From Phlegmacium glaucopus (Eukaryota > Basidiomycota > Agaricomycetes > Agaricales > Cortinariaceae): a stretch of DNA of 64,000 nt. The notes below the pieces were generated by a model. It searched no databases. It was given only the letters and a program-made list of their open reading frames with translations, and had not been told where the DNA came from. Numbering within the stretch: the stretch's first letter is position 1; the number at the start of each line of letters is the position of its first letter. The stretch covers positions 124,001 through 188,000 of the forward strand of contig MU130026.1 of assembly GCA_015039465.1 (NCBI GenBank), written 5' to 3'. Shown in pieces: positions 2,773-64,000 of this stretch. The position numbers and the translations under genes were made by a program.

Positions 2773-4916
2773 TGATAGGATCCATATAGCCTCTAGGTTT
2801 GTAAACTGGTTATTTTTGCGATTTAACAACTTCGCAGTATACGCCGATGCCTCGCAGGTACCAACTTTATTCGCACCTTCGTTCACGGTTCTCGCACATC
2901 CTTTGCACCTCGCACAACATACTATAATCCTCGCATAACCTTCACACATCACTCCTATGACCTTTGTAACTATCCAACGCACCCTCATTCCTCTTCGCAC
3001 TTCATACTTCGACGTATCTTCAGCTTTCTCTATCAATACCGGACTTGACCATGTCTTTCCTTCGCAACCACATCTTCACACAGCTTCTCTTTAATCTCGC
3101 GGTCTTTCATGGCTCGCATACGCATCCCTTTCACTGGTTTGATCATGGTCCATGTTGTTCTCAACTTAATTTCTTTTAACTTTCCATATATATTATTATT
3201 TTATCATCTCCTTCGAAACAGGAGGTCATTCAACTGACCTCCTTACTCATCACTTTTATTTTTATTCTATCCCCTATTCCTTTGTTACCAAACTACTGGG
3301 CTCATGTGACTTTGCATTAGCTCAATTTTTACATTACTGTTTCGCATACCCGCACCTGGCTTAGCTTGTTACTCTTGTATTAAGTACCTGTAGCAAGTAG
3401 GAGGCAAGGCGAACAAGAGACGGCCAGAGTTTTGATCCCATGAACTTTGCAGCAACGTTCTAAGTCAATAGTCTCATCCTTTAAGCTACTTTGCAAACCG
3501 CGTAATCATTCACGAACTTTGCTATCCTCGCGGTCTACTCTTCTTGCGTATTTCAATACCGCTGATAGGACTGAAAATTGAATACCTATGGATTATTCAT
3601 TTTTCATAATATTATTCTTCAATTGAATCAAAAAGATCAATAAACCAACCATGAATTAATCTACAAATTGATAGTGTAAGGGTCAAAAGTGTTGACTACA
3701 CTTGTTGATTAAACTGGAAATTGCAAAGTTTTGAATGTTAACTCAGCAGATAACTATGATCTGAATTGATCTATTTATCATACTGTAAAATAACACTACA
3801 AAAAGTTCAGACTATAACCATACAAAAATCCATAATGGTCTAAATGAACAACTTGCAATCTAAAGTAACTATCAAGTCTACAACTGTGAAGAAATTTGTC
3901 ATACAAGTCCTAGGACGATATCAGTAAACATCAATAAATTTCCTGAAACAGTGAAACACTTTGTGACATTTTGTCACATCACTGTGACACTTGTAACATT
4001 TTTGTGACATTTGTGACATTATGACGTCATGAGACATATGATATCATAGAACAAGGCATGATATCATAGAACAAGGCATGATATCATAGAAAAGGCATGA
4101 CATCAAAAACAACATAGACATGACATCACAGACTCTTACCTAATTTTGTTTCTCATTTATGTATATAAGTAACTAGAAAGCACCAGTAACATTAGTGAAT
4201 TTGCACTCATTCTTTCTTTCCCAAGTTTCACAAACAGTGAATTGGCACAAGTTAGAAAGAACTTACAAGTGGACTTGTCCTACTTCACTCAGTTCAAAGA
4301 ATATTAAATCCTAAAGGGACTTGTCTTTGGAGTTGGAATATTAAAGCCTTTGTCAGAGTCTGAGGAGAAATCCTTGTACTATAAAGCTGTTTCATAGTCT
4401 GCCTCAGGGACTTTAAATCATTTGTTTTTGGAACTGTTCATAGAATATTAAATCCTAAAGGGACTTGTCTATGTTCATCCAAATTGGGTTATCATATAAA
4501 CAAAGAATATTGAACCCCAAAAAGGGAATAATCTTTGTCTATCAAATCACCATCTCATATAGTCTGAGAAATTGGACTTTAAACACTGGTCAAATTAGGA
4601 AAGAAGAGAGAAAAGAGAAAAGACAAGTTGTGAAAGATAGTCTAAAAAGGATTGGACTTTAAACCTGTATTTGGAAGTTCTATTCAAGAGTATACTGGTT
4701 ATACTTTCAAGGAAACCCCAACTTGCTTAATACAGAAATTTGTTATTGGTTGCTGGTTGTTGGATTTGTTTTGAACATTTCCTTAAACAGTAATCTTAGA
4801 AATACAAATTCAACCACATCACCGCGGACTTCTCTTTAAATTCTATCGAGGAAATCTACATTAACCCCTCTGAACTACGTTACTACTTGCGGTCTGATCC
4901 CACCGCAGGTACATCA
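2773..4916 (+). mobile_element. R2 solo LTR copy 1, with an exact 4-base target duplication
   Basis: The element begins TGATAGGATCC and ends GGTACATCA, so it has TGAT...ATCA inverted ends. It is flanked on both sides by GCGA (2769-2772 and 4917-4920), and the transposase coding sequence reads across the site if the element is removed. It contains the R3a LTR at 3563-4821; without that insertion R2 is about 881 bases. A second copy lies on the minus strand at 15694-16549. No internal coding region is present, hence a solo LTR. Confidence 0.85.
3563..4821 (+). mobile_element. R3a solo LTR nested inside R2
   Basis: A 1259-base element with ends TGATAGGACTG and CCACATCA, flanked by CCGC on both sides (3559-3562 and 4822-4825). 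Without it R2 reads continuously and matches R2 copy 2. Its 3' part resembles R3b at 17555-18813, which is exactly as long. Inside are direct repeats: GACATTTTTGTGACATTTG-like units (about 3960-4020), ATGATATCATAGAACAAGGC units (about 4035-4100), and ATATTAAATCCTAAAGGGAC units (4301-4320 and 4444-4463). No protein is encoded. Confidence 0.85.
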
Positions 4917-10689: not shown

Positions 10690-10810
10690 AATGGGGCCTT
10701 AGGCTGTCCTGGGGCAACCTGAGGCAACCTGAGAGCATCCTGAGGCAACCTGAGAGCATCCTGAGGCAACCTGAGGCCACCTGAGAGCATCCTGAGGCAG
10801 CCTTAGTCCC
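10690..10810. repeat. Minisatellite with CTGAGGCAACCTGAGAGCATC-type units
   Basis: Imperfect direct repeats of about 10 and 21 bases: CCTGAGGCAACC alternating with CCTGAGAGCATC, at least eight half-units. Related CCTGGGGTGTCC strings occur at 11385-11500 and 5265-5300. Read as protein it yields a meaningless repeated peptide. Confidence 0.75.
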
Positions 10811-10870
10811 TTTGGATCTGATGCTAGAAAACATATATAAACCAGATATTTGAGTGGTCTCACACAACAG

Positions 10871-10892
10871 AATAATAATAATAATAATAAAA
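10871..10892. repeat. AAT trinucleotide microsatellite
   Basis: About seven consecutive AAT units followed by A/T-rich sequence. Simple repeat; no function inferred. Confidence 0.85.
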
Positions 10893-11384
10893 TTATATTC
10901 AATTATTCTAAACATCATATATACTAGTAATAAAATAATAATAAAATAGTGATACATAAATATATTAGTATAATACTGGGGAAGTAGGAAATAAGAAAAC
11001 AAAATTGTGGGTGGTTTATATATCTTTTGGATGGCGCACAGACCATTGGTCACATGGTCACAGATAAGCATGATTTCAAGCATATGGTACTGGGTCAGGG
11101 TAGATTACATAAATTCCAAAAAAGGAAATTTTTTAAAGATGGTAGAGAATTGTTTTAGGACCCTGAATATGTTTAAATTATATTAATAGCAGCTCTCCTT
11201 ATTGAGAAAACTGCAAAATACTTTCCTGGACGTGGCGGTTAAAGATTTTCTAGCAAAATTCATAAATTCTAAGGGACTCCCAGGGCCTCCTGATGTGATT
11301 TAATCCAGATGGTCAATGCACCAGGATACACTAAAGGTGTCCTGAGAAAATGGGTGACAGTCAAACCTTTATCTATGCTGTCCT
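10893..11384. other. A/T-rich intergenic stretch, nothing recognised
   Basis: A/T-rich sequence with no reading frame resembling a known family on either strand. The 158-codon minus frame that enters it is largely low-complexity and runs through the minisatellite. Confidence 0.5.
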
Positions 11385-11500
11385 AGGTTGTCCTGAGGTG
11401 TCCTTGGATAAGTTTGTAACACTCAAATTTTACCTGTGCTGCTCTAGGATGTCCTGGGGTGTCCTGGGGTGTCTTGGGGTGTCCTGAGTAGTGATGTGAT
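11385..11500. repeat. GTCCTGGGGTGTCCTG minisatellite
   Basis: Repeats of about 10-13 bases built on GTCCTGGGGT, GTCCTGAGGT and GTCTTGGGGT. The same motif class appears just left of R1 units at about 5270-5300 and in inverted orientation at about 10700-10800. It seems to travel with the R1 neighbourhood. Confidence 0.6.
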
Positions 11501-11562
11501 ACTAACAAATTACCCAAGGCTACCTAGGGCCAAAATCATTTTTCCTGATGTTATGACAATTT

Positions 11563-17490: not shown

Positions 17491-19166
17491 TGTTAGGGGA
17501 CACCTGATTTCAATCCAAACCTCAACCTCAGAACCATACATCCCGCCTTTCCGATGATATGATTTAAATCTGCATAAGCATGGTTTTTGCAATTTTATCT
17601 ATTATTTCAGCATAAATATTAATTAATGCACCAATAACTGGCTAATACAACTGATAATAGACAAGGGAATCAGAGTTGTTTACCCTACAACTGCTGATTA
17701 GACCTATTACTGTGTGACTTAAATGCATATAGTTAATAAGTGTGGTCAATAGACTATCATTTGTTACACTACAAATTGCATGTCTGGATTAAAACCAATA
17801 AATCCATGAATATCCTTATAGACTTGGCACAGGAAAAGTTAAATAAACAATATTGGGTTAGCAAATGTCATGGGGTGTGATTTTGGAGCAACAGAATATT
17901 ATTAATAAATATTCAGGGGAAGTTGGTGCCCTAGCAACAGTGGAAGCAGAATAACCAAGATAGTGGAACCATGTGATTGTGTGGGAATCATGATGATTAA
18001 GGATAGGGGAAGTGCTGAACAATCATAAAGATTGTTTCCAGGCACAATAGGCACAGTTCCCACCAAGAGGGGTGGAAACTACCTAAAATTAGTAACATGG
18101 GGCTAAAAATAGACAACCCCTATATTTTCAGGAACAATGAGTGCACATGGTGCCAGAACCAAAGTAAGGGAACCAGGAACCAGTATATCTATTTTTGGAC
18201 ATTATCTATTTTTAAGTATCTCAAATGTATAAAATACCTCCCAGGGTTTGTAAATAGTCAGAAAATTGGATTCTTTCTTTCCCCCCCTCAATTGCAACCT
18301 AGTACAGCTCACTGTCTTAGACATTGAGCAAGAACACTTGTCTTTGAGTAGTGGACTTGAAAATAAATCAGTTTCTCAGAGTTGTTTGACTTGTTGCAAT
18401 AATTGTTGAATTGTTGTAAAAGTTGTTGTTGTGTTTAAAGTCATAGCAGAAGCAAGAGGGCTTCTTGTGTATGCAATTGTGTTAAAGTTGTAACAAAGTC
18501 TTGGACTTTTGTGTACACAAATTGTAAATCAATCAGAGAAGTCTTAGGAATTCTTCTGCTGATTGTTGGTGCAAGCCATAAATTGCAAAACCACTTTACA
18601 AGTTTGATCATCCTTTAATTGATCCAAATTATTATTGTTGTTGTGTGTGTTTAATTGAAGTGAATTCAAATATTGGAAAGGTTATACTTTCTAGAAAACC
18701 CAACTTGCATTATTAAGATTGTATAAAGTATTGATTGAGTGATTGTTTTGAGTAGAGATTTTATAATCTTGAAAATACACCTTTTTCTCAACAACACCTG
18801 TGCAGTTACATCACCAACGACCTCCAACCTTCCATCCAACTCCACTTCCGTCACCAGTTCACTCCAGAACTCCGTAACTCCAATCTGACTCCAATCCTCC
18901 GGTTCATTCCATCTTTTATTTTTATTTTTCACATCACACCACTTCTTAATTAATTAATTAATTATTATTGTATCATTCATTTATTTATTTTATATCTCTG
19001 TTATGTCCATATTAGTACTTAAATACCCCCAGCCTAGCAGGGATCCCCATCCTTTCCTCTTTGGATCCCCTGCTAGGTGAGTCACTTGTAGATATCTTTT
19101 CTGAAATATTATTAACTTTGGATCCCCTGCTAGCTTGACTAAGTCAGTGTCGCAGTTGCCCTAACA
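17491..19166 (+). mobile_element. Solo LTR of the Gypsy family inside the Copia polyprotein
   Basis: Ends TGTTAGGGG and CCCTAACA. The flanks ATTTT and ATTTC match in four of five positions, a 5-base target duplication with one change. Copia coding reads CAEG on one side and KMPSKSYP on the other. Subtracting the R3b insertion and its 4-base duplication leaves 413 bases, identical to the Gypsy 5' LTR. Opposite orientation to the Copia. Confidence 0.85.
17555..18813 (+). mobile_element. R3b solo LTR nested in the Gypsy solo LTR
   Basis: A 1259-base element from TGATATGATTT to GTTACATCA, with flanks CCGA (17551-17554) and CCAA (18814-18817), a 4-base duplication with one mismatch. A close copy starts at 60733. 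The A/T-rich body has TTGTTG-rich stretches and no protein. It is a diverged relative of R3a at 3563-4821. Confidence 0.85.
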
Positions 19167-23448: not shown

Positions 23449-26416
23449 TTATATCATGACTTCAAGCTTCAGCTGCTCTGCCTCATTCCACCTTCCCTGA
23501 TTCCTGTACATGCTTGCTAGATTTTCCATACTGTTGAGGGTGTTTGGATGCTCTGCACCAAGCACCTTCTTCATTATGTCCATGACTTGGACCTGCAGCT
23601 GCTCTGCCTCATTCCATCTTCCCTGATCCCAGTATGTACTTGCTAAATTTGCTATACTGTTGAGGGTGTCTGGATGCTCTTCACCAAGCACCTTCTTGCT
23701 CATGTCCATGACTTGAACACCCAGCTGCTCTGCATCATTCCACCTTCCTTGATCCCTGTATGTGGTTGCTAGATTTGCCATACTGTTGAGGCTGACTGGA
23801 TGTTCTACACCATGCAGCTTCTTGCTCATGTCCATAACTTGAACCTGCAGCTGCTCTGCCTCATTCCACCTTCCCTGATTCCTGTATGTGCTTGCTAGAT
23901 TTGCCATACTGATGAGGGTGTCTGGATGTTCTGCACCATGCAGCTTCTTCCTCATGTCCATTGCTTGAACCTGCAGTGCAGCTGCTCTGCCTCATTCCAT
24001 CTTCCCTGATCCCTGTATGTGCTTGCTAGATTTACCATACTGTTGAGGGTGCCTGGATGCTCTGCACCAAACAGCTTCTTCCTCATGTCCATGACTTGAA
24101 CATCCAGCTGCTCTGCTTCATTCCACCTTCCCTGATTCCAGTATGTGCTTGCTAGACTTGCCATGCTTGTGAGAGTGTCTGGATGTTCTGCACCAAGCAG
24201 CTTCTTCCTCATGGACATGACTTGAATATTCAGCTGCTCTGCACTGTTCCAGTCTCCATTCTCCATCATGACTTGTGCAAAATTGGTCCATTTATCATCA
24301 TAGTACTTCTTGAGTCCTATCTGCCTTCTATGTAATTCATTTGCCTTAATATGTGGGAAAATTAACCGTCGCAGTGCATAATCCTGACTTTCAAATCTCC
24401 ATGAAATTGCACAGGACAAGATTATGCTTCCCATCTCACACATTATTTTCTGCTCAGATTTTAACATTCTCTCCTGACTCCAGTAGTGCACCAGAGGATG
24501 AACAGATAACATTTTAGATGATTGTCCTCTTTTCATCAAGGAGAAAGAAAGAAGAACACTAACTCCCTGTCCAAAGATGAAGTCATCCCAGTGACCATTG
24601 TTGTCCAAGTCAAGCAGGGTATGATCCAGTAAAGTGACTGCCTGAGGCATCTTTTCAGCTATGTCACCATCAACAACAGCTTTCATGGCCTCCTCAGCAG
24701 CAGATTGGAATATCTCTTTAGAAATATTGCTATGATGATAGAAAGCACATATTTGAAGGATTAGGATTGCTGCCTGTGCAGCTTGTGCATCTCCAGCAGT
24801 GGAATGTCCACCAGCTCTCTTCTCTATTTCTTTGAAAGAAAGATCCCAAGTCCCATACACTGTTTTATCATACTTTGATGCTCCTGTGAATGTAGCATCT
24901 GACATAAGAGCATGACGATGTACTGAGAATTGCCTCAGATATTTATCAATATCACATTTCCCAGCCTCAATGTATGCCCCAGCATGATTAATAGCAAGAG
25001 GAATGCAGCCAAGTTCAGTCACAATATTTTTGGCAGCTTCTACATGCTCAGGCAATGGATCCAAACAACTAGCCTTCAGCAGCAGAGTTATAGCATCTAG
25101 CTCCTCCATTTCATGGATCTCAATGCTGTTCTCAAATAATACAATCCTTCCCATGGATCGATTTCTGCTAGTAATGAGAATATTACCTCTGTTACCTGAG
25201 GGAAAGAACTTGGCCACCTCCTCAGGAAGAGGATCATCAGCATTATCAAACACCATCAACCATTCCTCATGAATGTAAGATATCCACTGGAGGACGGACT
25301 CAACTGAGCCATCCACCCCAGAATCTTGTGCAGCAGGAAGGCTAGATATCCCCTTGAGAGATGTTCCCATGCTCTCCTGAGAGGAGGCATCAATCCAGAA
25401 CACATGTGAAAAACTAACAAGAAATGAATCCAGTGTTGTGAAAGGGAAGTAAGAACCCTTACTTGTCAAACATTTTTTCTATGAACTTGAGACAAATCTG
25501 GGTCTTTCCAATCCCTCCCAATCCCCAGAGGAGACAAGAGCACCTTGACATCAGTCTACTAGTAGCATGATGAACAAAAATCTTCTCAAGTTTATCAAGT
25601 ACATCTTGCCGTCCAGTAAAAATTGGACTGGAGTTGGGTTTTTGAGTTACATGGATATTTATCTGCCCTTCACCACTATTGGTAGGGAGAATATTGACAT
25701 TGTTCTGTATGTACAATTATTGCTAAATCACACACACAACTTACAAGAAAGACTTACAACAAAAGTGCCGCCAGTGATGAGGGTATTCTGAGCATTCGCA
25801 AAGAGACCCAAGGCAGATTGTTGAGCCTACTGATCATTAGCGAAAGCCGAGAACATATGGCGTAAGCAACTCACGGAGGGGTTTTGTTCTGATTTAGTGG
25901 ATCTCAAGTTAGCTTGCATTATGGCATCAGGCGAGGAGAGTGAATTTCCTTCCGGATGGGCTACAGGTGTAACCGCCAAAGCAGAGACCGAGGCGGAGAT
26001 TTGGAGTTCATGGGTAGTCTGATCGACGATGATGATTGAGTGATTATGGATGTGATGAACTAAGTTGAACACTCACATGAACGCCAGTGTCTGGAACGCT
26101 TATAAGAGCAAGATCATTGAGTGCCAGAGCGGAAACCGAGGTAGAGACTGGGAGGTCATGGGCAGCCTGATGGATGACGATGATTAAATACTTGAGGATA
26201 CGATGGGCGAAGTTGAACGCTCACAGTAATGCCAGCGACTTGAATAACCCGCGCGCTTGCAGGTGCAGCACTAGCGGGAACGGATGGCATGGGGTCAGCG
26301 GGGCTTGTTATGATTGTCGATGCCGAAGTTGCTGGTTCAGGGCTTGCATCGTTGATGGTCAGAGGGGAATATTTGGGTTTCTTGTACTTGACAACTTTCT
26401 TAAAAATGCGCTTCAT
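23449..26416 (-). CDS. NB-ARC/TPR NLR-like protein, frameshifted in the TPR region
   Basis: Six exons on the minus strand: 26416-26225, 26166-26077, 26018-25875, 25826-25758, 25704-25463 and 25413 onward. The phase closes across all five introns. The N-terminus carries the FANAQNTLITGGTF signature seen upstream of fungal STAND ATPases. The Walker A motif is GLGGIGKTQ at the end of exon 5; the Walker B-like block is EWLMVFDNADD, and HPLVHYW ends the NB-ARC part. Then come TPR units of 42 residues (LGAEHPDTLTSMASLASTYWN-type), seven if the frame were continuous. A 5-base tandem duplication (CTGCA twice, about 23975) shifts the frame after the third unit, so the encoded product stops at 23952 (732 residues) and four units to 23449 are out of frame. 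Such proteins are thought to sense non-self or trigger cell death. The shift may be inactivation, an allele or a sequencing error. Confidence 0.8.
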
Positions 26417-30543: not shown

Positions 30544-32523
30544 ATGTCCCAGAAAATTGTCGGAATCCTCGGTGGGCGTAAGTTAGAAACGTATAAACCT
30601 TTTTTTACAGTAGCTAACGTTATTGTTTTTTTAAAAACAGATTTTCGCTACCTTTTTTCTTCAATATGAAACCAACTTTTTTTACTTTCAGGAGGCGGCC
30701 AACTGGGTCGGATGCTTGCGGCATCTGCATCGCTTTTGAATGTCAAAATTGTCATACTTGACGCTGGTGAAAATGGTCCAGCTAAACAGGTTGCTGCACC
30801 TGTAGTACCTCATCTTTCTCATATCGATGGATCTTTCACCGATCCCGAAAAAATTAGAGAGCTAGCAGGCAAAGTAGACGTCCTCACAATAGAGATCGAA
30901 CATGTCGATGCTACCACTCTGGAACAAGTCCAAAAGTCTTATGAAGGAAAGGACTTTTCAGTTCATCCAAGTCCTTCTACTATTCAAATCATCCAAGATA
31001 AATTTCGCCAAAAACAACACCTTTCCTCTCACGCCCTACCTGTCCCCTACTTTCTTCAAGTAGACTCCTCAATTTCCGCCATTCATGCGGCCGCAAACAC
31101 CCTTGGGTTGCCGTTGATGCTGAAAAGTCGTACTCTGGCATACGACGGACGTGGTAATTTCGCATTACGTGACTTGGCCCAGGCCGAAGAAGCGATTGCA
31201 GCGCTCGGAAATCGTCCCCTTTATGCCGAGAAGTGGGTCCCATTTTTCAAGGAAATTGCGGTGATGGTTGTGAGAACCACAGATGGCGAAATTCGGTCTT
31301 ATCCAGTCGTGGAAACAGTTCACAAGAATAACATCTGCCATCTCGTTTTTGCTCCCTTGCGAACTAGAGATCCCCTACTTTCCCTCAAAGCCCGATCAAT
31401 AGCAGAAGCAGCTGTCAAATCGTTTTCTGGTGCTGGTGTTTTTGGCGTGGAAATGTTTCTCATGCAAAACGGTACGTGTTCATAACTTGTATAGATATAA
31501 TCGCTCATACGCGAGACTGGAAAGGAAATATTTTCGTGAACGAGATTGCCCCCCGACCTCATAATTCAGGCCATTACACTATTGAAGCGTGTGAAACGTC
31601 CCAATATGAAAACCATCTACGCGCAATACTCTCACTGCCACTAGGATCCACGGCCATGAAAGTTCCTTCTGCAGCCATGCTCAATCTGATCGGACATTCT
31701 TCATCTATGGCGGAGGTAACAACCACGGTAAACATCGCCCTGGGTATTCCAGGCGCTTCTGTCCATCTTTACGGGAAATCAGAATGTCGGAGCGGCCGGA
31801 AAATGGGACATATCACCATTGTTGCCGATTCTGATGCTCAACTAAGAGCACGGCTACGTCCTCTCTTGGAAAGTCTTCCCTCTAACTCACCAGAAGAAAC
31901 CGTTCTGTATGCGCCCTTGCCCGCCACGCCTGGATCTGGATTTTCAGATTCTAATCCGTTGGTAGGTGTGATTATGGGGTCAGACTCGGACTTGCCCGTG
32001 ATGCTACCCGCGGCGCGAATCCTAGACCAATTCAAGATTCCATATGAACTAACGATAGTCTCAGCTCACCGCACCCCTGATCGTCTCGTAGAATACGCAC
32101 GGTCAGCGTCTGTGAGGGGCCTACGAACGATTATAGCCGGCGCAGGAGGTGCAGCTCATTTACCAGGCATGGTCGCTGCGATGACTGCGCTTCCTGTCAT
32201 TGGTGTTCCTGTTAAAGGAAGCACGCTAGATGGCGTGGACTCGTTACACAGTATAGTTCAAATGCCCGTGAGTCCCATCCATCATTATGCGAAGATTCTT
32301 TCCTTGCTCATACGTAGTTCAGCGTGGCATACCTGTGGCGACAGTTGCTATTAATAATGGCACTAATGCAGGCTTGTTGGCCGTCCGGATATTATCGGCG
32401 GGTATTCCTACCCTTATTGACAGTATGGAGAAGTACATGAAGAACATGGAAAGTGAGGTTCTGGATAAAGTAGACAAACTGAAGGAAGTGGGATGGGAAA
32501 GCTATCAAGTGAAACGACCTTGA
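30544..32523 (+). CDS. ADE2: Phosphoribosylaminoimidazole carboxylase (AIR carboxylase), bifunctional
   Basis: Four exons (30544-30571, 30692-31471, 31525-32267, 32323-32523) give 583 residues, the usual length for fungal Ade2. The N-terminal half is the PurK ATP-grasp part: [13 protein letters not shown] at the start, [26 protein letters not shown] and [18 protein letters not shown]. The C-terminal part is Pur[38 protein letters not shown] and [14 protein letters not shown]. It makes carboxyaminoimidazole ribotide in de novo purine synthesis, in the cytosol. Intron 1 starts at the weaker donor GTGGGC, because that restores the conserved GGGQLGRM loop. A stronger GTAAGT lies six bases downstream and would add two residues in frame. 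All key motifs are present. Confidence 0.97.
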
Positions 32524-34300: not shown

Positions 34301-36239
34301 CTACACACCGATATCCCTGGATTCGGTGAAGAATCGATCAAGCATCTTTTGATACTCATGATATACTCTTATGAATTTGACATCAGTGGTTCCAAGGTCG
34401 GTTGCCTCCACGTCCTTTTGGAAGTTTTTTATCAGCAAATTTGTCGAGGGTACTCGCAAACTTAAAATAATATCTGAACACACTTTCAAAATCCACATTA
34501 GACAAAGCATTGCAGTCAAAAATACGTCAACTGCTCCACTACTTGAGATTTTGCAGAATTCTTGCATCAATTCATCAATGTCCGTCATGATTGCGTCTTT
34601 GACTAGTTTTGGAGACTTGATGAAACGCGGTGGAAGATGAAATTTAACATAATCCCAAGTTGCGCTGTGTGGCAGCCGTGTGGAGTGGATCCTGTCGTAC
34701 TATTTGTGAATCTAATGAGTGGAGATGAATAAACCGCTTACCTCCAAGACCTTCCAATCCATTTAGTAATCAAGGCAAAGCTCCGTATAGTAGCCTGATT
34801 CTTATGTTCCTGTTCATTGACATGGAATGGGCCCGAGCGACTTGAATCCACCAAGTAATCGCGAAATGAGGCATGTATGAAGTAAACACTTCCCAACTTT
34901 CTGAAGTAAACAAAACCGACATCTAAGTCATAGTGCCATTCAGTCGAGTACTCCCCGTCGTCATCTCCCACAAATGAAATTAAGGACGACAGACCCCGTA
35001 GCACATGCTTCACTTCACCTTCCTCCATCTCGAAAATATCTTCAATCACCTTAGGTGTCAAAGTCCCAGCATCAAATGCCAAAATGATTCCAAGAACTTG
35101 GACAATGGTCGCTGTGCTTGGATAAACAGACAAGATTTGGGTGTACAATTGGTCAAGGTCTGAGAACGCCTTGGGATCAGGCATCAATACAAGCTCAAGC
35201 TGTTTCGTTGGATTACAGAAATCGGCACCAACAAATTTAAGGACAGTCGCTGCGTAGATGAACTGGCCGGACGACCGTTGGACAAGGAGATTGATAATGC
35301 CTTTAGCGGGCCACGGTTGTTTCATATGGGATAGAATATCGGCATGCTTGGCACAGATCTCAGCAAAGCCATCTCGCAGAAGCACCTGAATATCCTGTCT
35401 GGGATTGAATGTTTCGTCGAGGACGACTCGCTCGGTGATTGTGCACAGAGCTTCTTGATCGAAACTAGCGCGGATATGTGATTCAGGGCGACTCCCAATT
35501 AGAAATCTGAGTGGTAATTTGTGAGCGGTGATCGTTTCGCACAGGAGATGGAGAATGTGCTGTTGAGTCGCCTTGTCCTGGCATTCATCCAATCCATCTA
35601 TGATCACAAGATAGGATCGTTGTGGAAGAGGTGATAAAGATTGGAGCGCATCGACAATGAGAGTTTGTAGTTGTACTGCAATTGACTTTGTATGGACTGT
35701 CGGCTTTGCTTCCATGATACGGTTGATGTGATGACGTAGTCCAGGTATCTTCAGTGCGAGTTGATATGCGATTGTTGAGAACAGAAAATGGCCTTCATCG
35801 CTGCCATTCTTTCCTCTGGAAAAGAAAAAGCTACCTCCAAAATTCTCGTCGTGTCTGGATGAACTACACAGAAACTCTGCGATTGCCTGGAGGATCGCTG
35901 TCTTCCCGGCCCCAGCGGGCCCATAAAGCCAAAAGAATGGAAGCGCCGAACTTTCGTTATGGATCCGGTCCAAAATAATCTGTCGAACGGCCATGCGAGT
36001 ATCTGGATGACACTTTGGTGCTGGGTAGCGTTCAGCAGAGTCATGAATCGCTCCATGAGAAACAGCTTGGCTCAAGGCTTGAAGTCCTTGATTTGTTTGG
36101 TCATTGATAAGGATTGGACAAGAAGGATTGGAAATCGTGACTTACCAAATTCCCGATCATTAATATGAATGTCGCCCTTGGCTGAATTGAACATACCCCC
36201 TCGGATGATAATATTTCTCGCCTTTTTAAATAGAGACAT
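34301..36239 (-). CDS. NACHT-domain NLR-like protein
   Basis: Three exons (36239-36146, 36086-34742, 34691-34301) give 609 residues with exact phase. The N-terminus is a short basic exon with the RGGMFNSAKGDIHIND signature, then GLQALSQAVSHGAIHDSAER, which leads into NACHT in many basidiomycete proteins. Walker A is GPAGAGKTA (about residue 80) and Walker B is YLVIIDGLDEC (about residue 165). RFLIGSRPE follows as a sensor block, and FIHASFRDYL ends the winged-helix part. The C-terminus is helical, with no WD40, TPR or ankyrin repeats. NACHT proteins are NTP-driven switches of innate-type responses. The third exon joins only through the acceptor at 34692 (phase 2). A relic of the same first exon lies upstream at 36380-36458. 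Confidence 0.9.
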
Positions 36240-52048: not shown

Positions 52049-55000
52049 ATGGCTAATGAAAGAGATGGAAATCTCGGCCAACTGTGAATGTTATAAGCAT
52101 ATGATGTGTTTTGTTGCTGACCCGTTGTTCCAGCTCTGGTCCCCCAATTACAATAAGGTGCGTCAATCCCGCCATTTTTTTGTAACGGCGGATCTCAAAC
52201 CGTTTCTTCCTCAGCGCTCATATCAGGCCCCAGCCAGACAATTCCTGGTTCGAGGTTACTGGTAAGCGTCTGAATCCTAGCTTGGTGATCCGCTTTCAAA
52301 CATATTTCCTGTCAGTCCTCCGAACGCACAAGCTTCCTCGTCTCGAGACCCTGTGGGGCAAGGAGAGGCGCTTCTATGTTACTGTGACCGATGGAACGAT
52401 AACAAAGAAGACAACAACTGTTCGTAGTGTGGAACAGGCCGTGGAGTGGAACGAGGGGCTCGACGCGTTGTACACGACAACCCTCTTTTTGTAATCCGAT
52501 TCTTCAACTGATAGACTGCTGCAGTGCTGTATTTCCGTCTACCCATATTACATTATCTCTTTATGCCAGGCGAAGCATAGTAGGCAAAGATGTCCTTATC
52601 GGAACCCATGAGATACCTCTTGAATCTCAAAATGGTTCGTCTTTGGTTAGAACTCTTGCTTTTTTAATGAACTGACCATCCATACGTAGAAATTTCTTTC
52701 ACTCTCAGTAACGTCGATACATCGCAGCCGGTAACACTCTACTTAACGACCAACTTGTCAGTAAACTCACGTTCAACCGCGACCCACAACAACCCCATAA
52801 CAACGCAAGTGGGTAATTTTCTTGCCACAGAACTGACTGCAGATACTTCTGTGGCCCCAAACTCCACAGAACCGATGGTCTCCAGTACCACCGAACGTGA
52901 TGACATTTCCATTGGAAATGGTACTCATGATCCACCAATGGCGGAGATGTTGCCTGAAAATGCTCTCCGTGGTGCTGACGATGCTGTGGGGGTGATGAAC
53001 CTTTATACCACCTGGCAAGATGCTGTTGGAAGAATAAAGTGGGTGATGGACACGCTAAGCACAGTTGCAGATGTACGTTTATTATATCACTCTTTTGTGT
53101 CTATTCTTGACTGGGCTGGCTTCCGCTTGTTAGCTCAACCCATACGCGAAGATGGCATGGGGTATACTGTCAATGATTCCCCAGGTGGATCTCATCGCTT
53201 TATTGTCAGATGAAAACACTGATCTTTGGTTCATCCCGATCAGACTTTTTTGAGCCAGGTCCAGCGTGACGAAAACATTCAAGCCCTACTTATCACCATA
53301 CATGATGCGTTTGATTTTGCGGAAGAGGCAGGTCCTTTGAAAAATATCGAATCGCATAGCAAGCAAGCAGATATTCTTAAACTCATGCTGCAGCACGTCT
53401 GCCATTGCAGCGACTTTATCCAGTCGTACGCACAGGACATGCAATTCTGTACGTCGTCGACTTCTCTTTCATCGGCCATTGTAAACATGTGATTTACAGG
53501 GAAGCGATGGTTGAAGAATATCGGTAGCCCATCCGACGATAAGATAGCTAAGCTTTGCGACAAGCTTGTCCAACTCCGAAAGGCTTTTTTGGATCATGCT
53601 ACCGTTGCCACCGAGATCAAAGTGCTTCAAATTCTGGACCATGTGGATACGTTGTCCAAGCAAATCTCGGATCTCGGTATGTAGTCCTGATCGTTTTGAG
53701 GATCATTGATCTGACAACGGGCACGCAGACCTCGATGGAAAAATGAGCGAAATCCCTTATAAACAGTCCGGCATGGAGGCAGATTATCTTTGGGGGACAC
53801 GCACAGACTTCTTGGACTACATCGTTAAGTGGGTGGACGATCCTGGTTCCAAGCGTGCACTGGTTCTCTTCGGGCAGGCGGGTACAGGAAAGTCGTCTAT
53901 TGCCCATGAGATTGCTCGGCGCTTTCGAGTCATGAACCGTCTCAGTTCATACTTCATCTTTCTTCGGGGGGAGCGATCCAAACACGAGGATTATCTCCTC
54001 TTCACAACCATTCTTCACGATCTATCCAACCGCTATCCTTCATTTAAGAACGCTTTGGGAAAGGCAATCAGAGACAATAAGCCTCTTCGAGCTGCGAAAG
54101 ACTATCATACGCTTTTTGAATCCCTACTCCTACAACCGCTCAAGGATATACACACCGTTGGTCCTATTCTTATCATCATCGATGCTTTAGATGAGAGCGG
54201 GGATGCAACTGGCAGAGATGGGCTACACACCTTTCTTGCTAAAAACCTCGCTAAACTCCCACCAAACTTTCGCATTCTTATCACCTCAAGGCCGGAGGTT
54301 GACATTATGCTTCCGTTTGCCAATGCGTCAGGAAAGCCATACGAAATTATACACATGGATGACTCCAAGCTGGCTGCTAGAACAAAGGATGATATTCTCA
54401 TTTATCTTCAGGAAAAGCTCCCCATGGACACGTTTCGGAAGCATGGCAATGAGCTTGCAGAGAAAGCGGAGGGCCTGTTCCAGTGGGCGGCAGTTGCATG
54501 CGGGTACATCAATTATCCTCCACGCGGACTCACCAAGAATGATTGTATACGTGCTCTTTTGAAGCTTTCTGCCGATCATGAAGAGCTGGGTCAAAAACTA
54601 GGCCCGTTATACGACTTGTACAAACAGGTTCTCGAAGGATACTTCGAGTCGCCCATCGTACGACGTCGATTCCAGTCGGTCATGGGACAGCTCTTAGCTG
54701 CATTCGAACCCCTCTCTATCAGCTCTCTGACCGCTTTGCGACAGTATCCTCTTGATGATCCTGATGATGACGATTCCGTCGTTGTGATTGTCCGCCAGCT
54801 TGGCTCTCTACTGAGTAATGTCACTTTAGCTGATCAAACACTACCCATTGTTCCTCTCCACACTTCATTCCGCGACTTCCTGACCGACAAGAAAATGGCT
54901 GATTCCTTTTATCATATCGATCTTGGCCAGGCCCATCGTCAGTTAGCTCATTCGTGCCTTGGCTTAATGCTTCACGATCTTCAATTCAACATCTGCAAGT

Positions 55001-57599
55001 TAGAATCATCACATCTCCCCAACAGCAAGATTCCGGACCTTGACACCCGCATCAATGCATACATCCCGCCTGCTTTGTTCTACGCTTGTTGTTTCTGGGA
55101 TGACCATCTGGAACGCCTCGGATTTGAACAGGATCTTTTGGTCAAACTTCGATCACTCTTCGAGGAAAAGTTCCTCTTTTGGCTAGAAGTCCTTAGCCTC
55201 AAGAATTTTGTGGCTTATGCTACTCCAGCGTTATCGACTTTGCAGAAATGGTTGGCCTCTGATCAGCATCATGAGGTATATCCAACAGTCCAATGTAGTA
55301 ATTACGATACTAACGGACATGATCATAATAGGCTTTCAGCGACGAAGTGAAGACGTTCCAGGAGCTGGTTATTGATGCCTCTGCGTTTCTGCGTTATTTC
55401 GGGATGGTCATAGCAAAGAGTGCTCCGCATATCTATGTATCCGCACTACCCTTTGCGCCACTTTCTTCGCAAGTTTCGAGGCATTATTCTTCCATGTTCA
55501 CCAATACATTGTCTGTGAAACTGGGGCAACTGTCTCATTGGCCGGCAATGGAGATGGTCATTCCTGCGGGAGAGCAAAGGATCTGTTCTGTCGCATTCTC
55601 GCAGGATGGGCAACGGATCGTCTCTGGCTCATCTGATAAATCTGTTTGTATCTGGAATGCCACAACGGGAGTGATGGAAGTAAGATTTACTGGGCATAGT
55701 GATGATGTCTATTCCGTCGCGTTCTCGCAGGATGGGCGGTGGATCGTCTCTGGCTCGTCCGATGGGACCATTCGTGTGTGGAATGCCACTACGGGAGTGA
55801 TGGAGGGAAGCCCATTGATTGGGCATACAGGTCGGGTCCGTTGCGTTGCGTTTTCGCAGGATGGGCAGCGGATTGTCTCTGGCTCATCTGATAAATCTGT
55901 TCGTATCTGGAATGCCACAACGGGAGTGATGGAGGGAAGACCATTTACTGGGCATATCGGTGGTGTCCATTCTGTCGCATTCTCGCAGGATGGGCAATGG
56001 ATCGTCTCTGGCTCGGATGATAGGACAGTTTGTGTATGGAACGCCAGAACGGGAGTGATGGAGGGAAGACCATTGACTGGGCATACAGATTGGGTCCATT
56101 CTGTTACATTCTCGCAGGATGGGCAGCGGATCGTCTCTGGCTCAGCTGATAGTACAATTTGTGTGTGGAATGCCAGAACGGGAGTGATGGAGGGAAGACC
56201 ATTTACTGGGCATACTGAACCCATCAATTCTGTTGCATTCTCGCAGGATGGACAGTGGATCGTCTCTGGCTCGGATGATCAAACTATTCGTGTATGGAAT
56301 GCCAGAACGGGGGTGATGGAGGGAAGACCATTTACTGGGCATACAGATTGGGTCCATTGCGTCGCATTCTCACAGGATGGGCAGCGGATTGTCTCTGGCT
56401 CATCTGATGCAACAATCCGTGTGTGGAATGCCACAACTAGAGTGATGGAGGGAAGCCCATTTTTTGGGTATACTGATGACGTCTATTCTGTTGCATTCTC
56501 ACAGGATGGGCAGCAGATTGTCTCTGGCTCATCTGATGGGGCAATTCGGGTGTGGAATACCGCTACCGGAGTGATGGAAGGAGGCCCATTTACAGGGCAT
56601 ACTCATACTGTTGGTTCTGTCGCATTATCGCAGGATGGGCAGCGGATCGTCTCTGGCTCACATGATTGGACAATTTGTGTGTGGAATGTCACAACGGGAC
56701 TGATGGAGGGAAGACCACTTGCTGGGCATACTCATATGGTCTGTTCTGTTGCATTCTCACAGGATGGGCAGTGGATTGCCTCTGGTTCAGCTGATGGGAC
56801 AATTTGTGTGTGGAATACCACAATGGGAGTGATGGAGGGAAGCCCATTTACTGGGCATACAGATTGGGTCCATTCTGTTGCATTCTCGTGGGATGGGCAG
56901 TGGATTGTCTCTGGCTCAGCCGATAGAACAGTTTGTGTATGGAATGCCAGAACAGGAGTGATGGAGGGAAGCCCATTTACTGGGCATACTGATTCTGTCA
57001 TTTCTGTCACATTCTCACAGGATGGGCAGTGGATTGTCTCTGCCTCAATTGATCGGACAGTTCGTGTATGGAACACTAGAACAGGGGTGATGGAGGGAAG
57101 ACCATTGACTGGGCATACAAATTGGGTCCGTTCTGTTGCATTCTCACAGGATGGGCAGCAGATTGTCTCTGGCTCAGATGATGGGAAAATTTGTGTGTGG
57201 AATTCCAGAACAGGAGTGATGGAGGGAAGACCATTGACTGGGCATACTGGCCACATCTGTTCTGTTGCATTCTTGCAAGATGGGCAGCAGATTATCTCTG
57301 GCTCAAAAGATGGCACAATTTGCTTGTGGAATACCATGAGGGGGAAAATGGCTATTGCTGAACCAACTGGCTTCACTGACCAGTCCAGAATAAATAGTGA
57401 GGGTTGGATCCATGGAAGTGAGGATGAACTTCTAGTATGGATTCCAAACATACATAGAGTCTCTCTTCACCGCCCAAGCACTCTCAGGGTTATTGGTGGA
57501 CATGAAACCTGCCTTGATCTTTCTAAGTTTGTACATGGACCAAAATGGGCTACTTGTTACAATAACCAAAATATTGAACTGGAATTTTCTGACAATTAA
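52049..57599 (+). CDS. C2-NACHT-WD40 NLR-like protein
   Basis: Eleven exons (52049-52083, 52134-52157, 52215-52261, 52316-52469, 52525-52634, 52690-53072, 53134-53184, 53244-53448, 53500-53676, 53729-55275, 55332-57599) give 1666 residues with exact phase. A C2-like domain lies at about 30-125 (FEVTVLRTHKLP, FYVTVTDGT, DVLIGTHEIPLES). A helical linker follows (NPYAKMAWGILSMIPQ, then LSQVQRDENIQALL). NACHT starts near 430: Walker A GQAGTGKSS, Walker B ILIIIDALDES, RILITSRPE and LHTSFRDFL. From about 993 there are 14 WD40 repeats, enough for two seven-bladed propellers. Such proteins are candidate non-self sensors in which the repeats bind the ligand and NACHT transmits the signal. The three tiny first exons are inferred from phase alone. 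Confidence 0.88.
55581..57370 (+). repeat. Tandem WD40 coding repeats, 14 units of about 129 bases
   Basis: Each unit encodes 43 residues on the plan V-x-S-V-A-F-S-Q-D-G-Q-x-I-V-S-G-S-x-D-x-T-I-x-V-W-N-A-x-T-G-V-M-E-G. Most differ at few sites, and the variable positions cluster: the residue before SVAF, the RW/QR/QW/QQ pair, the residue after SD, and the three residues after GHT. DNA is also very similar between units. The first unit is one codon shorter and the last one diverges. Confidence 0.92.
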
Positions 57600-60605: not shown

Positions 60606-60732
60606 CTGTCCTAGATTACATTAGAATTCATGATGTAGCTATACAATATAAACTCACCTCTGTTAGAGTTGAATACCTGGTTACAACTAGAATCAGAAAA
60701 ATGACAGATTCAATGAATGGTTTAGGTTCCGT

Positions 60733-61215
60733 TGATATGATTTAAATCTGCATAAGCATGGTTTTTGCAATTTTTATCTATTATTTCAGCATAAATATTA
60801 ATTAATGCACCAATAACTGGCTAATACAACTGATAATAGACAAGGGAATCAGAGTTGTCTACCCTACAACTGCTGATTAGACCTATTACTGTGTGACTTA
60901 AATGCATATAGTTAATAAGTGTGGTCAATAGACTATCATTTGTTACACTACAAATTGCATGTCTGGATTAAAACCAATAAATCCATGAATATCCTTATAG
61001 ACTTGGCACAGGAAAAGTTAAATAAACAATATTGGGTTAGCAAATGTCATGGGGGGGGATTTTGGAGCAACAGAATATTATTAATAAATATTCAGGGGAA
61101 GTTGGTGCCCTAGCAACAGTGGAAGCAGAATAACCAAGATAGTGGAACCATGTGATTGTGTGGGAATCATGATGATTAAGGATAGGGGGAGTGCTGAACA
61201 ATCATAAAGATTGTT
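60733..61215 (+). mobile_element. R3b LTR copy 2, left 483 bases in normal orientation
   Basis: From TGATATGATTT onward it matches R3b at 17555-18037 almost base for base, and stops matching abruptly at GATTGTT (61215). The expected continuation (TCCAGGCACAATAGG) is found at 63176 read backwards. CCGT lies just left (60729-60732) and would be the target duplication. Confidence 0.92.
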
Positions 61216-63176
61216 GAACATACTTTTGGGTTAAACCTACTTGTATCTGTTCAGGGAAATCCTAAATTATAAGATACTTGTCAAGGTTTTTGTTTACTAA
61301 ATTTCAGGGTGTCCGTCTGATACTTTGTCGAAATATCATGTTCCTAAAGAGGAGTCTGAGACTGTTTCCGAAATTATAAGGTTGAGGTTTCTGTTCAGGG
61401 AAATCCTAAATTATAAGAAACTTGACTCACTTCATCCTGTTCAGGTGAACATTCAAGAAAGATTGAACACGGTTAAGTGTCACCACTTTAAACCCTTTCT
61501 TTCTTACTCACGTTTAAGTGATTACAATGACCATGAAAGACCGATGGAAATATGTATTTACTCTTTGTTATAATTCATTCTCAGACACTTCCTACTGACT
61601 ACTAAAATACTACAGTACAGAACAAAAACCTACTATTTAGGAACAAAATACTATTTAGTATACAAAGTACTATTTAGTATACAAAGTACTAGTGTATTTT
61701 CGGTGTTTACAGTGTTTTTACAGTGTTTGACAAAGTGACAAAGTCCTTGAAATAACTACAAATGACTATAGAAGGATCCTGAACATACTGTTTAAGGAAG
61801 TGTCAACATCTGAAACTATCAATGAAATCTAACGTTCATCAAGTAAACTGGTAATACCTAAAAACATACCAATCTCAGACTTGAAAAAACATGACAATAA
61901 ATTGTCATACTATTTATCTAGTTAGGTCTAGTATCAATAGACGACTAATTGTAAGTTCTGAAACGTTAAAGGTCAAATTAGTTGTTCACATCAGTTGTGA
62001 AAACTGGGAATGTGATAGTTAAACATCTAATTAAGTACTAACCAAATAACTAGAAAAACTAAGTTAACTTCTTATTATAATACTTTTTACTTATTAGGTA
62101 TCCATAAGTTAAAAGTCAGGATAGTGGTTCAGATCGCAACTAGTCCACAATAAGTTTCGATAGTATCTAAACTGCAACAAGTTTTAGTAACTTATCTCCA
62201 CTCGACTACAACTTTTCTTTTACTTTGCTCGGTTATTGAGTGGCAACAGTAGACACGATGATATAGTTCTTGTCCTAATCCGGAGAAAGTAACATAGTAC
62301 TCCAAGTAGTTCATGTCGTATCCGTAATGAGGATGTTGTCGTAGTTGTTTGCCACTACATTGACGTGTCTCCAACAACTCTTTTCCACATAAAAGTTCTA
62401 ATATTTTTAGAGATGAGTTTTGTTATTGAGTTAGTTATGAAATATGTTAGAATTATTACGTTCAACCCAAAAGATCTTTCATATTGGCAAGGTTCTGAAA
62501 CTTTAAGTGAAGTTGATTATGTGTGTTGTTGTTGTTATTAAACCTAGTTAACTTCCTACTAGTTTGAAAATTCACCAAAACGTTAAATACCGAACGTGGT
62601 TGTTAGTCAGTTTCTTAAGGATTCTGAAATGACTAACTAAATGTTAAACACATGTGTTTTCAGGTTCTGAAACAATGTTGAAGTTGTGTTAACGTATGTG
62701 TTCTTCTGAGTTTGAAGACGATACTGAAATTGTGTTAACGTATGTGTTCTTCGGGAGAACGAAGACGATACTGAAATTGTGTTGTTGTTGAAAATGTTGT
62801 TAAGTTGTTAATAACGTTGTTCAGTTTGTTGAGACTCTTTGACTAAATAAAAGTTCAGGTGATGAGTTTCTGTTCACAAGAACGAGTTACAGATTCTGTC
62901 ACTCGACATGATCCAACGTTAACTCCCCCCCTTTCTTTCTTAGGTTAAAAGACTGATAAATGTTTGGGACCCTCCATAAAATATGTAAACTCTATAAATT
63001 TTTATCTATTACAGGTTTTTATCTATATGACCAAGGACCATGGGAATGAAACCAAGACCGTGGTACACGTGAGTAACAAGGACCTTTGTATCCCCAACAA
63101 GATAAAAATCGGGGTACAAGGATTAAAATCCATCAAAGGTGGGGAGAACCACCCTTGACACGGATAACACGGACCT
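61216..63176. other. Mirror block: 1961 bases reversed but not complemented
   Basis: Read from 63176 down to 61216 without complementing, this block continues R3b copy 2 from its next base (TCCAGGCACAATAGGC...). It runs to the LTR end (GTTACATCA at 62354) and then CCGT, matching the CCGT before 60733. After about 225 bases of other sequence it enters an R3a LTR (TGATAGGACTG at 62125 downward). This R3a matches 3563-4500 for about 910 bases. Normal reading or its reverse complement gives no match to either LTR. Inside is a direct duplication of about 50 bases (about 62690-62790), a feature of this copy. Frames found here are meaningless. Confidence 0.93.
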
Positions 63177-63906
63177 NNNNNNNNNNNNNNNNNNNNNNNN
63201 NNNNNNNNNNNNNNNNNNNNNNNNNNNNNNNNNNNNNNNNNNNNNNNNNNNNNNNNNNNNNNNNNNNNNNNNNNNNNNNNNNNNNNNNNNNNNNNNNNNN
63301 NNNNNNNNNNNNNNNNNNNNNNNNNNNNNNNNNNNNNNNNNNNNNNNNNNNNNNNNNNNNNNNNNNNNNNNNNNNNNNNNNNNNNNNNNNNNNNNNNNNN
63401 NNNNNNNNNNNNNNNNNNNNNNNNNNNNNNNNNNNNNNNNNNNNNNNNNNNNNNNNNNNNNNNNNNNNNNNNNNNNNNNNNNNNNNNNNNNNNNNNNNNN
63501 NNNNNNNNNNNNNNNNNNNNNNNNNNNNNNNNNNNNNNNNNNNNNNNNNNNNNNNNNNNNNNNNNNNNNNNNNNNNNNNNNNNNNNNNNNNNNNNNNNNN
63601 NNNNNNNNNNNNNNNNNNNNNNNNNNNNNNNNNNNNNNNNNNNNNNNNNNNNNNNNNNNNNNNNNNNNNNNNNNNNNNNNNNNNNNNNNNNNNNNNNNNN
63701 NNNNNNNNNNNNNNNNNNNNNNNNNNNNNNNNNNNNNNNNNNNNNNNNNNNNNNNNNNNNNNNNNNNNNNNNNNNNNNNNNNNNNNNNNNNNNNNNNNNN
63801 NNNNNNNNNNNNNNNNNNNNNNNNNNNNNNNNNNNNNNNNNNNNNNNNNNNNNNNNNNNNNNNNNNNNNNNNNNNNNNNNNNNNNNNNNNNNNNNNNNNN
63901 NNNNNN
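63177..63906. other. Assembly gap of 730 Ns
   Basis: A run of unknown bases exactly at the edge of the mirror block. Long reading frames that cross it are artefacts of reading N as open. Confidence 0.99.
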
Positions 63907-64000
63907 TTAGATGTTTAACTATCACATTCCCAGTTTTCACAACTGATGTGAACAACTAATTTGACCTTTAACGTTTCAGAACTTACAATTTAGTCGTCTA
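63907..64000. other. Complement-only fragment of an R3a LTR
   Basis: Complementing these 94 bases without reversing gives R3a from AATCTACAAATTGATAGTG onward, as at 3658-3750. The reverse complement equals the mirrored string at 61937-62031 with one base difference. It is thus a second mirrored piece in the opposite orientation, continuing beyond the window. Confidence 0.88.

Follow-up and report, generated by a model that had tools for sequence, protein, structure and literature searches.

Results

The window, by which we mean the whole stretch of 64,000 nucleotides of Phlegmacium glaucopus DNA that was analysed, lies on contig C21 of an agaricomycete assembly of 60.5 Mb in 259 contigs, and has a GC content of 43%. 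NACHT/NPHP3_N, WD40 (14 stretches) and TPR genes are found at 53743-57599, 34738-36075 and 23952-25469, with repeats internal to the WD40 region and also at the TPR gene's edge, and a phosphoribosylaminoimidazole carboxylase gene (ATP-grasp, PurK_C, AIRC) occupies 30712-32354 as two overlapping ORFs. The features that concern us here are copies of the LTRs R3a and R3b and an N gap near the right end of the window:

3563-4821, forward strand: R3a LTR, reference copy
17549-18815, forward strand: R3b LTR plus a few flanking bases, reference copy
60733-61215, forward strand: opening part of an R3b LTR copy, with CCGT at 60729-60732 immediately upstream
61216-63176, no strand: left gap-side block, written backwards in place and uncomplemented
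61217-62125, no strand: start of an R3a LTR, mirrored (62125 corresponds to 3563, and 61217 to 4499)
62354-63176, no strand: rest of the same R3b LTR copy, mirrored (63176 corresponds to 18037; the LTR ends at 62354)
63177-63906, no strand: N gap of 730 bases
63907-64000, no strand: start of the right gap-side block, mirrored, which continues outside the window as far as about C21:188417 (window 64417)

When the left gap-side block was compared with the window, as written or as its reverse complement, it matched only itself, an internal 38-bp repeat, and the 94-bp piece that follows the gap, which is mirrored too, and an ordinary inversion was therefore rejected. An earlier note on this DNA had claimed that these 1961 bases are the mirror of the expected sequence, and had proposed that the reversed string be aligned to the R3 LTRs. 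In that alignment, made within the window, the reversed, uncomplemented block matched R3a at 3563-4499 over 946 columns (90.2% identity, E 0.0) and R3b at 18037-18815 over 829 columns (91.1% identity, E 0.0), which bears the claim out. The forward text leading up to the block, 60727-61215, is 98.8% identical to forward R3b 17549-18036; the last R3b base of this stretch, 18036, sits at 61215, and its successor, 18037, sits at 63176, so that the join has an offset of 0, with nothing lost or gained. Base 63176 is also the last before the N gap, and the block thus abuts the gap. CCGT stands immediately before the start of this LTR copy (TGATATGA) and, in the reversed block, again at 62353-62350 (read backwards), immediately past the CATCA that ends the LTR. 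The seamless join from 61215 to 63176, the CCGT on both sides of the LTR, the run-on into an R3a LTR (62125-61217) and the ending of the block at the gap were all as the earlier note had described them.

The right side of the gap extends what had been reported, since both flanks of this one C21 gap bear a piece reversed in place. The right block runs from C21 187907 to about 188417, and forward R3a base 95 meets mirrored base 96 with none lost. Both C21 blocks match their homologues in reversed, not reverse-complement, form, and each has one end that continues the contig exactly and another that abuts the gap at offset 0. By coordinates, a rightward R3a LTR ends the left piece, and an R3a LTR of the opposite strand makes up the right one. 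This arrangement has a precedent in the assembly, because C181:196705-199305 (cut as L039 and L040) contains, in forward text, a head-to-head pair of R3a LTRs with 18 bp between them that are 97% alike over 1301 columns. The C181 pair is itself a large near-palindrome.

Matches to the block as written, counting the block itself, numbered at least 27 for 61216-62215 and at least 25 for 62216-63176, and they were spread over 24 contigs besides C21. The loci L001-L033 were compared with forward and mirrored references, and joins were sought in 36 loci (L001-L033 and L064-L066), some of which are overlapping cuts of one place. Exact in-place reversal abutting an N gap was found at nine junctions on eight contigs, with an offset of 0 at C21 left, C21 right, C226, C47, C186 and C171, and an offset of 1, with a single base left unaligned beside the gap, at C144, C198 and C148. 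The junction at C171:1003126 involves a repeat other than R3, which lies at 10738-11553 in the window. Offsets at three further places came close (10 at C171b, -6 at C23 and -8 at C148:89k), and these may be alignment-end effects; the offsets at C148:300k (-2) and C198:82k (-3 or 2) belong to pieces that both end at a run of A. Many of the 36 loci contain no forward and mirrored pair on a common reference, and hence give no offset. Mirrored composition also abuts N gaps at C128:307177, C171:169913, C171:1000969 and C222:214478. At C198:244k, the 130 bases immediately preceding the gap were scored as forward by the composition model described below (21), yet they align as mirror. Mirrored text was thus present at the edges of many gaps and in unrelated content, and a fault limited to the locus of the block was rejected, given its occurrence on many contigs and the exact joins at nine junctions.

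Three other loci deserve mention in their own right. C120:312321-312643 (L032) may be a further mirrored place: at 83-85% it matches, in as-is and thus mirrored form, portions of the block that flank or separate the two mirrored LTRs, yet this locus has no LTR match and its mirror composition is weak. Mirror-like composition outside R3 was also seen in two loci that had been taken as forward copies, at L042:3084-4273 (C55) and L063:2906-4022 (C176), the latter with a run of 25 A at its edge and the former with neither gap nor A-run in the locus.

The far sides of 13 gaps were scored with the composition model, the N run being complete in 6 and cut at the edge of the locus in 7. Among the six complete gaps, C171c was mirrored on both sides, the far side was forward at C171b and C26, the far side next to the gap was forward or unclear at C226 and C184, and the far side at C47 was weakly mirror-like. 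Although the cases are few, it seems that fills were hit singly, as an orientation-dependent bug would do. We think it unlikely that a wrong string operation placed entire small contigs in the scaffolds, as opposed to gap-fill extensions. Such a placement would yield the same text, and some mirrored stretches, for example on C243, C193 and C55, had neither a gap nor an A-run in the bases examined. However, at the nine junctions one end of the mirrored piece joins the contig without loss and the other abuts a gap, as an extension would, whereas a separate contig in a scaffold normally has a gap on each side.

Coding content was also evaluated in the mirrored pieces. The longest ORF was longer in the reversed text for 22 of the 27 segments called as mirrored, two of which overlap (in L023 and L027). 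The five in which the reversed ORF was not longer include L022, which is partly forward coding text. Reversal of L028 revealed a copia Pol ORF of 505 aa (SH3_retrovirus, 3.7e-18; RVT_2, 8.3e-9), compared with 95 aa as written, and reversal of L005 revealed a TPR ORF (TPR_10, 3.1e-7). As a control, the two longest ORFs of L028 and of L005 as written were searched, and none had a Pfam match; four other reversed frames likewise had no Pfam match. The reversed 155-aa ORF of L033, one without a Pfam match, had 48 homologues (best E 1.3e-31), and all of those named by organism are from Phlegmacium glaucopus. These homologues, along with the NACHT, WD40 and TPR genes, indicate an agaricomycete.

Mirrored R3 copies occupy many sites and vary among themselves, as they might if the mirrored text were real DNA, made by some process of parallel-orientation strand copying, with the copies then spreading. 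Kilobases of reversed, uncomplemented DNA would in that case have arisen by parallel-strand copying, and the adjoining gaps would be assembly failures that it caused. Real mirrored DNA would overturn antiparallel copying, and because of this stake gap contact, A-runs and ancestry were each checked. The probability that we give to such a process is vanishingly small. The ends of the blocks fall at N gaps, although an N gap is not DNA, and reversal in place restores the sequence at nine junctions with nothing lost.

Runs of A or T were scanned in all 79 loci and in the window. Runs of at least 14 gave 12 matches, which correspond to 10 distinct places since two places had been cut twice; all were A and never T, and all were in the mirror-bearing loci (n = 34; L001-L033 and L063). 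Their lengths, by distinct place, were 25 (four places), 26 (three places), and 30, 16 and 15 (one place each). The window and the other 45 loci contained no A or T run of at least 14, and none was present in window 1-61215 plus L034-L062, a total of 183,831 bases. Where the join could be placed (C148:300k and C198:82k), the A-run stood at the edge of the mirrored block, and at C23 it stood between two blocks. The length of 25 and the constant letter suggest that the A-runs are placeholder Ns stored as A. Runs that are always A beside other blocks, with lengths of 25-26 at 7 of the 10 places, also stand against mirrored text as real DNA. They bear, too, on the possibility that the mirroring arose in the genome copy that we analysed and not in the public record. 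Our analysis rests on one copy of the assembly, but a copying fault would hardly single out gap edges or set A-runs of 25-26 bases beside the blocks, and we hold this origin to be very improbable.

We scored composition with a model of order 5, symmetric between strands. When its training set was forward loci from other contigs, it gave the block a score of about -666, compared with -46 for the lowest 1961-bp window in 1-60726, although these training loci themselves contain R3a LTRs, which favours the extreme score of the block. When the training set was instead the window minus the LTRs and the block, the score of the block, taken within L001, was -249. The k-mer segmentation also gives short false calls, as many mirror calls were made in the forward part of the window in a held-out test, with scores down to -116 compared with -667 for the block, and isolated short calls were therefore left unused. 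CpG observed/expected is 0.06 in forward R3a and 0.03 in forward R3b, and the block has a GpC observed/expected of 0.11 and a CpG value of 0.69, so that the CpG depletion of the forward LTRs is seen in it as GpC depletion. Decay thus runs in the reversed text of the block and not in the text as written, where a real mirrored family would carry it. GpC was lower than CpG in 26 of the 27 mirror-called segments (the exception is L028), a count that is not fully independent of the model because the segment borders were partly set by it. As a separate observation, the near-absence of CpG in the forward R3 LTRs at 3563-4821 and 17549-18815 is as expected from strong methylation-driven or RIP-like decay.

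The ancestry of the mirrored R3a copies was examined in a tree of 7 mirrored copies, whose text was reversed before alignment, and 30 forward rows that represent 29 copies; the rows F_L039 and F_L040 are one LTR arm entered twice, which leaves the mirror rows unaffected. The mirror label requires 4 changes on the tree, at least 3 of them forced by well-supported branches, and a single mirror clade was rejected (AU p 0.00128). The mirroring of R3a therefore did not arise once and then spread, and the spread of one mirrored copy by transposition was rejected for R3a. Mirrored copies were more clustered than shuffled labels, as only 5 of 500 shuffles gave a count as low. The copies close together on the tree were those on C26, C237 and C243, which are near kin, and the left and right copies of C21, which are two arms at one gap; we put the clustering down to the search having been made by likeness to one block and to the two C21 arms. 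A real mirrored repeat family was accordingly rejected on the gap-abutting joins, the reversed CpG decay, the A-runs and the tree.

Discussion

We consider it virtually certain that the block at 61216-63176 is an assembly artefact, a gap fill that was mirrored in place, rather than a real biological feature, and it contains no new biology. The earlier note had held that a fault in string handling during gap filling or scaffolding was by far the likeliest cause of the block, and this attribution is supported by the many contigs affected, the presence of mirrored text on both sides of a gap, the nine exact gap-abutting junctions, the A-runs, and the normal content and composition of the pieces when read backwards.

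In our model, the sequence extending the left contig into the gap would have been written backwards, in the same place and on the same strand. The simplest cause would be that a fill derived from the opposite strand was complemented but left unreversed, giving the exact reverse of the true text; worded otherwise, the text of the fill would have been reversed without complement during assembly. The right-side fill of the same gap and many fills elsewhere would have been hit likewise, and where two fills did not overlap on meeting, 25 Ns may have been written as a placeholder and afterwards turned into A. The software step and the tool we infer, and filling of the PBJelly type fits.

Mirrored fills are a data quality issue, because they hide repeats and genes from ordinary homology search. 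Close to gaps they can also damage repeat libraries and gene models, and a composition scan may call them foreign. A reverse-and-search test, or a score of GpC against CpG, could detect such blocks in other assemblies. Within the literature that was searched, the mirrored gap-fill artefact may be previously unreported, since gap fills with reversed text were not found among titles and the openings of abstracts, and are not described in the portions available of PMC4580222, PMC6240028 and PMC6191289.

PBJelly puts 25 Ns into an overfilled gap, and the A-runs beside mirrored pieces are 25-26 bases long at 7 of the 10 places, although their letter is A and the placeholder of a PBJelly-type tool is N. 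According to the available part of its description, PBJelly recognises a gap from 25 Ns upwards, lengthens the flanks into it and leaves some gaps "overfilled" (PMC3504050). Overfilled or extended gaps from long-read gap filling are also found in the available part of PMC9635638, and one pipeline for Laccaria strains, as given in the accessible portion of PMC12923307, consisted of AllPathsLG, PBJelly and Quiver. The overfilled gaps of PBJelly resemble the C21 gap in that flanks are extended from both sides with a gap left open between them, and in that 25 Ns is the smallest gap; in contrast, reversed-text fills and the change of N to A are absent from these partial descriptions (PMC3504050; PMC9635638).

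Two other systems invite comparison. An inverted misassembly, like the block, is a segment wrongly oriented in a scaffold. However, the segment in an ordinary inverted misassembly is reverse-complemented and remains valid DNA, whereas the block is reversed without complement. The mirror repeats that form H-DNA motifs are short tracts. In the portion of the literature available to us, such repeats share with the block a symmetry under reversal without complement, but they are polypurine-polypyrimidine tracts (PMC9171763), whereas the mirrored pieces described here are kilobases of LTR and coding text.
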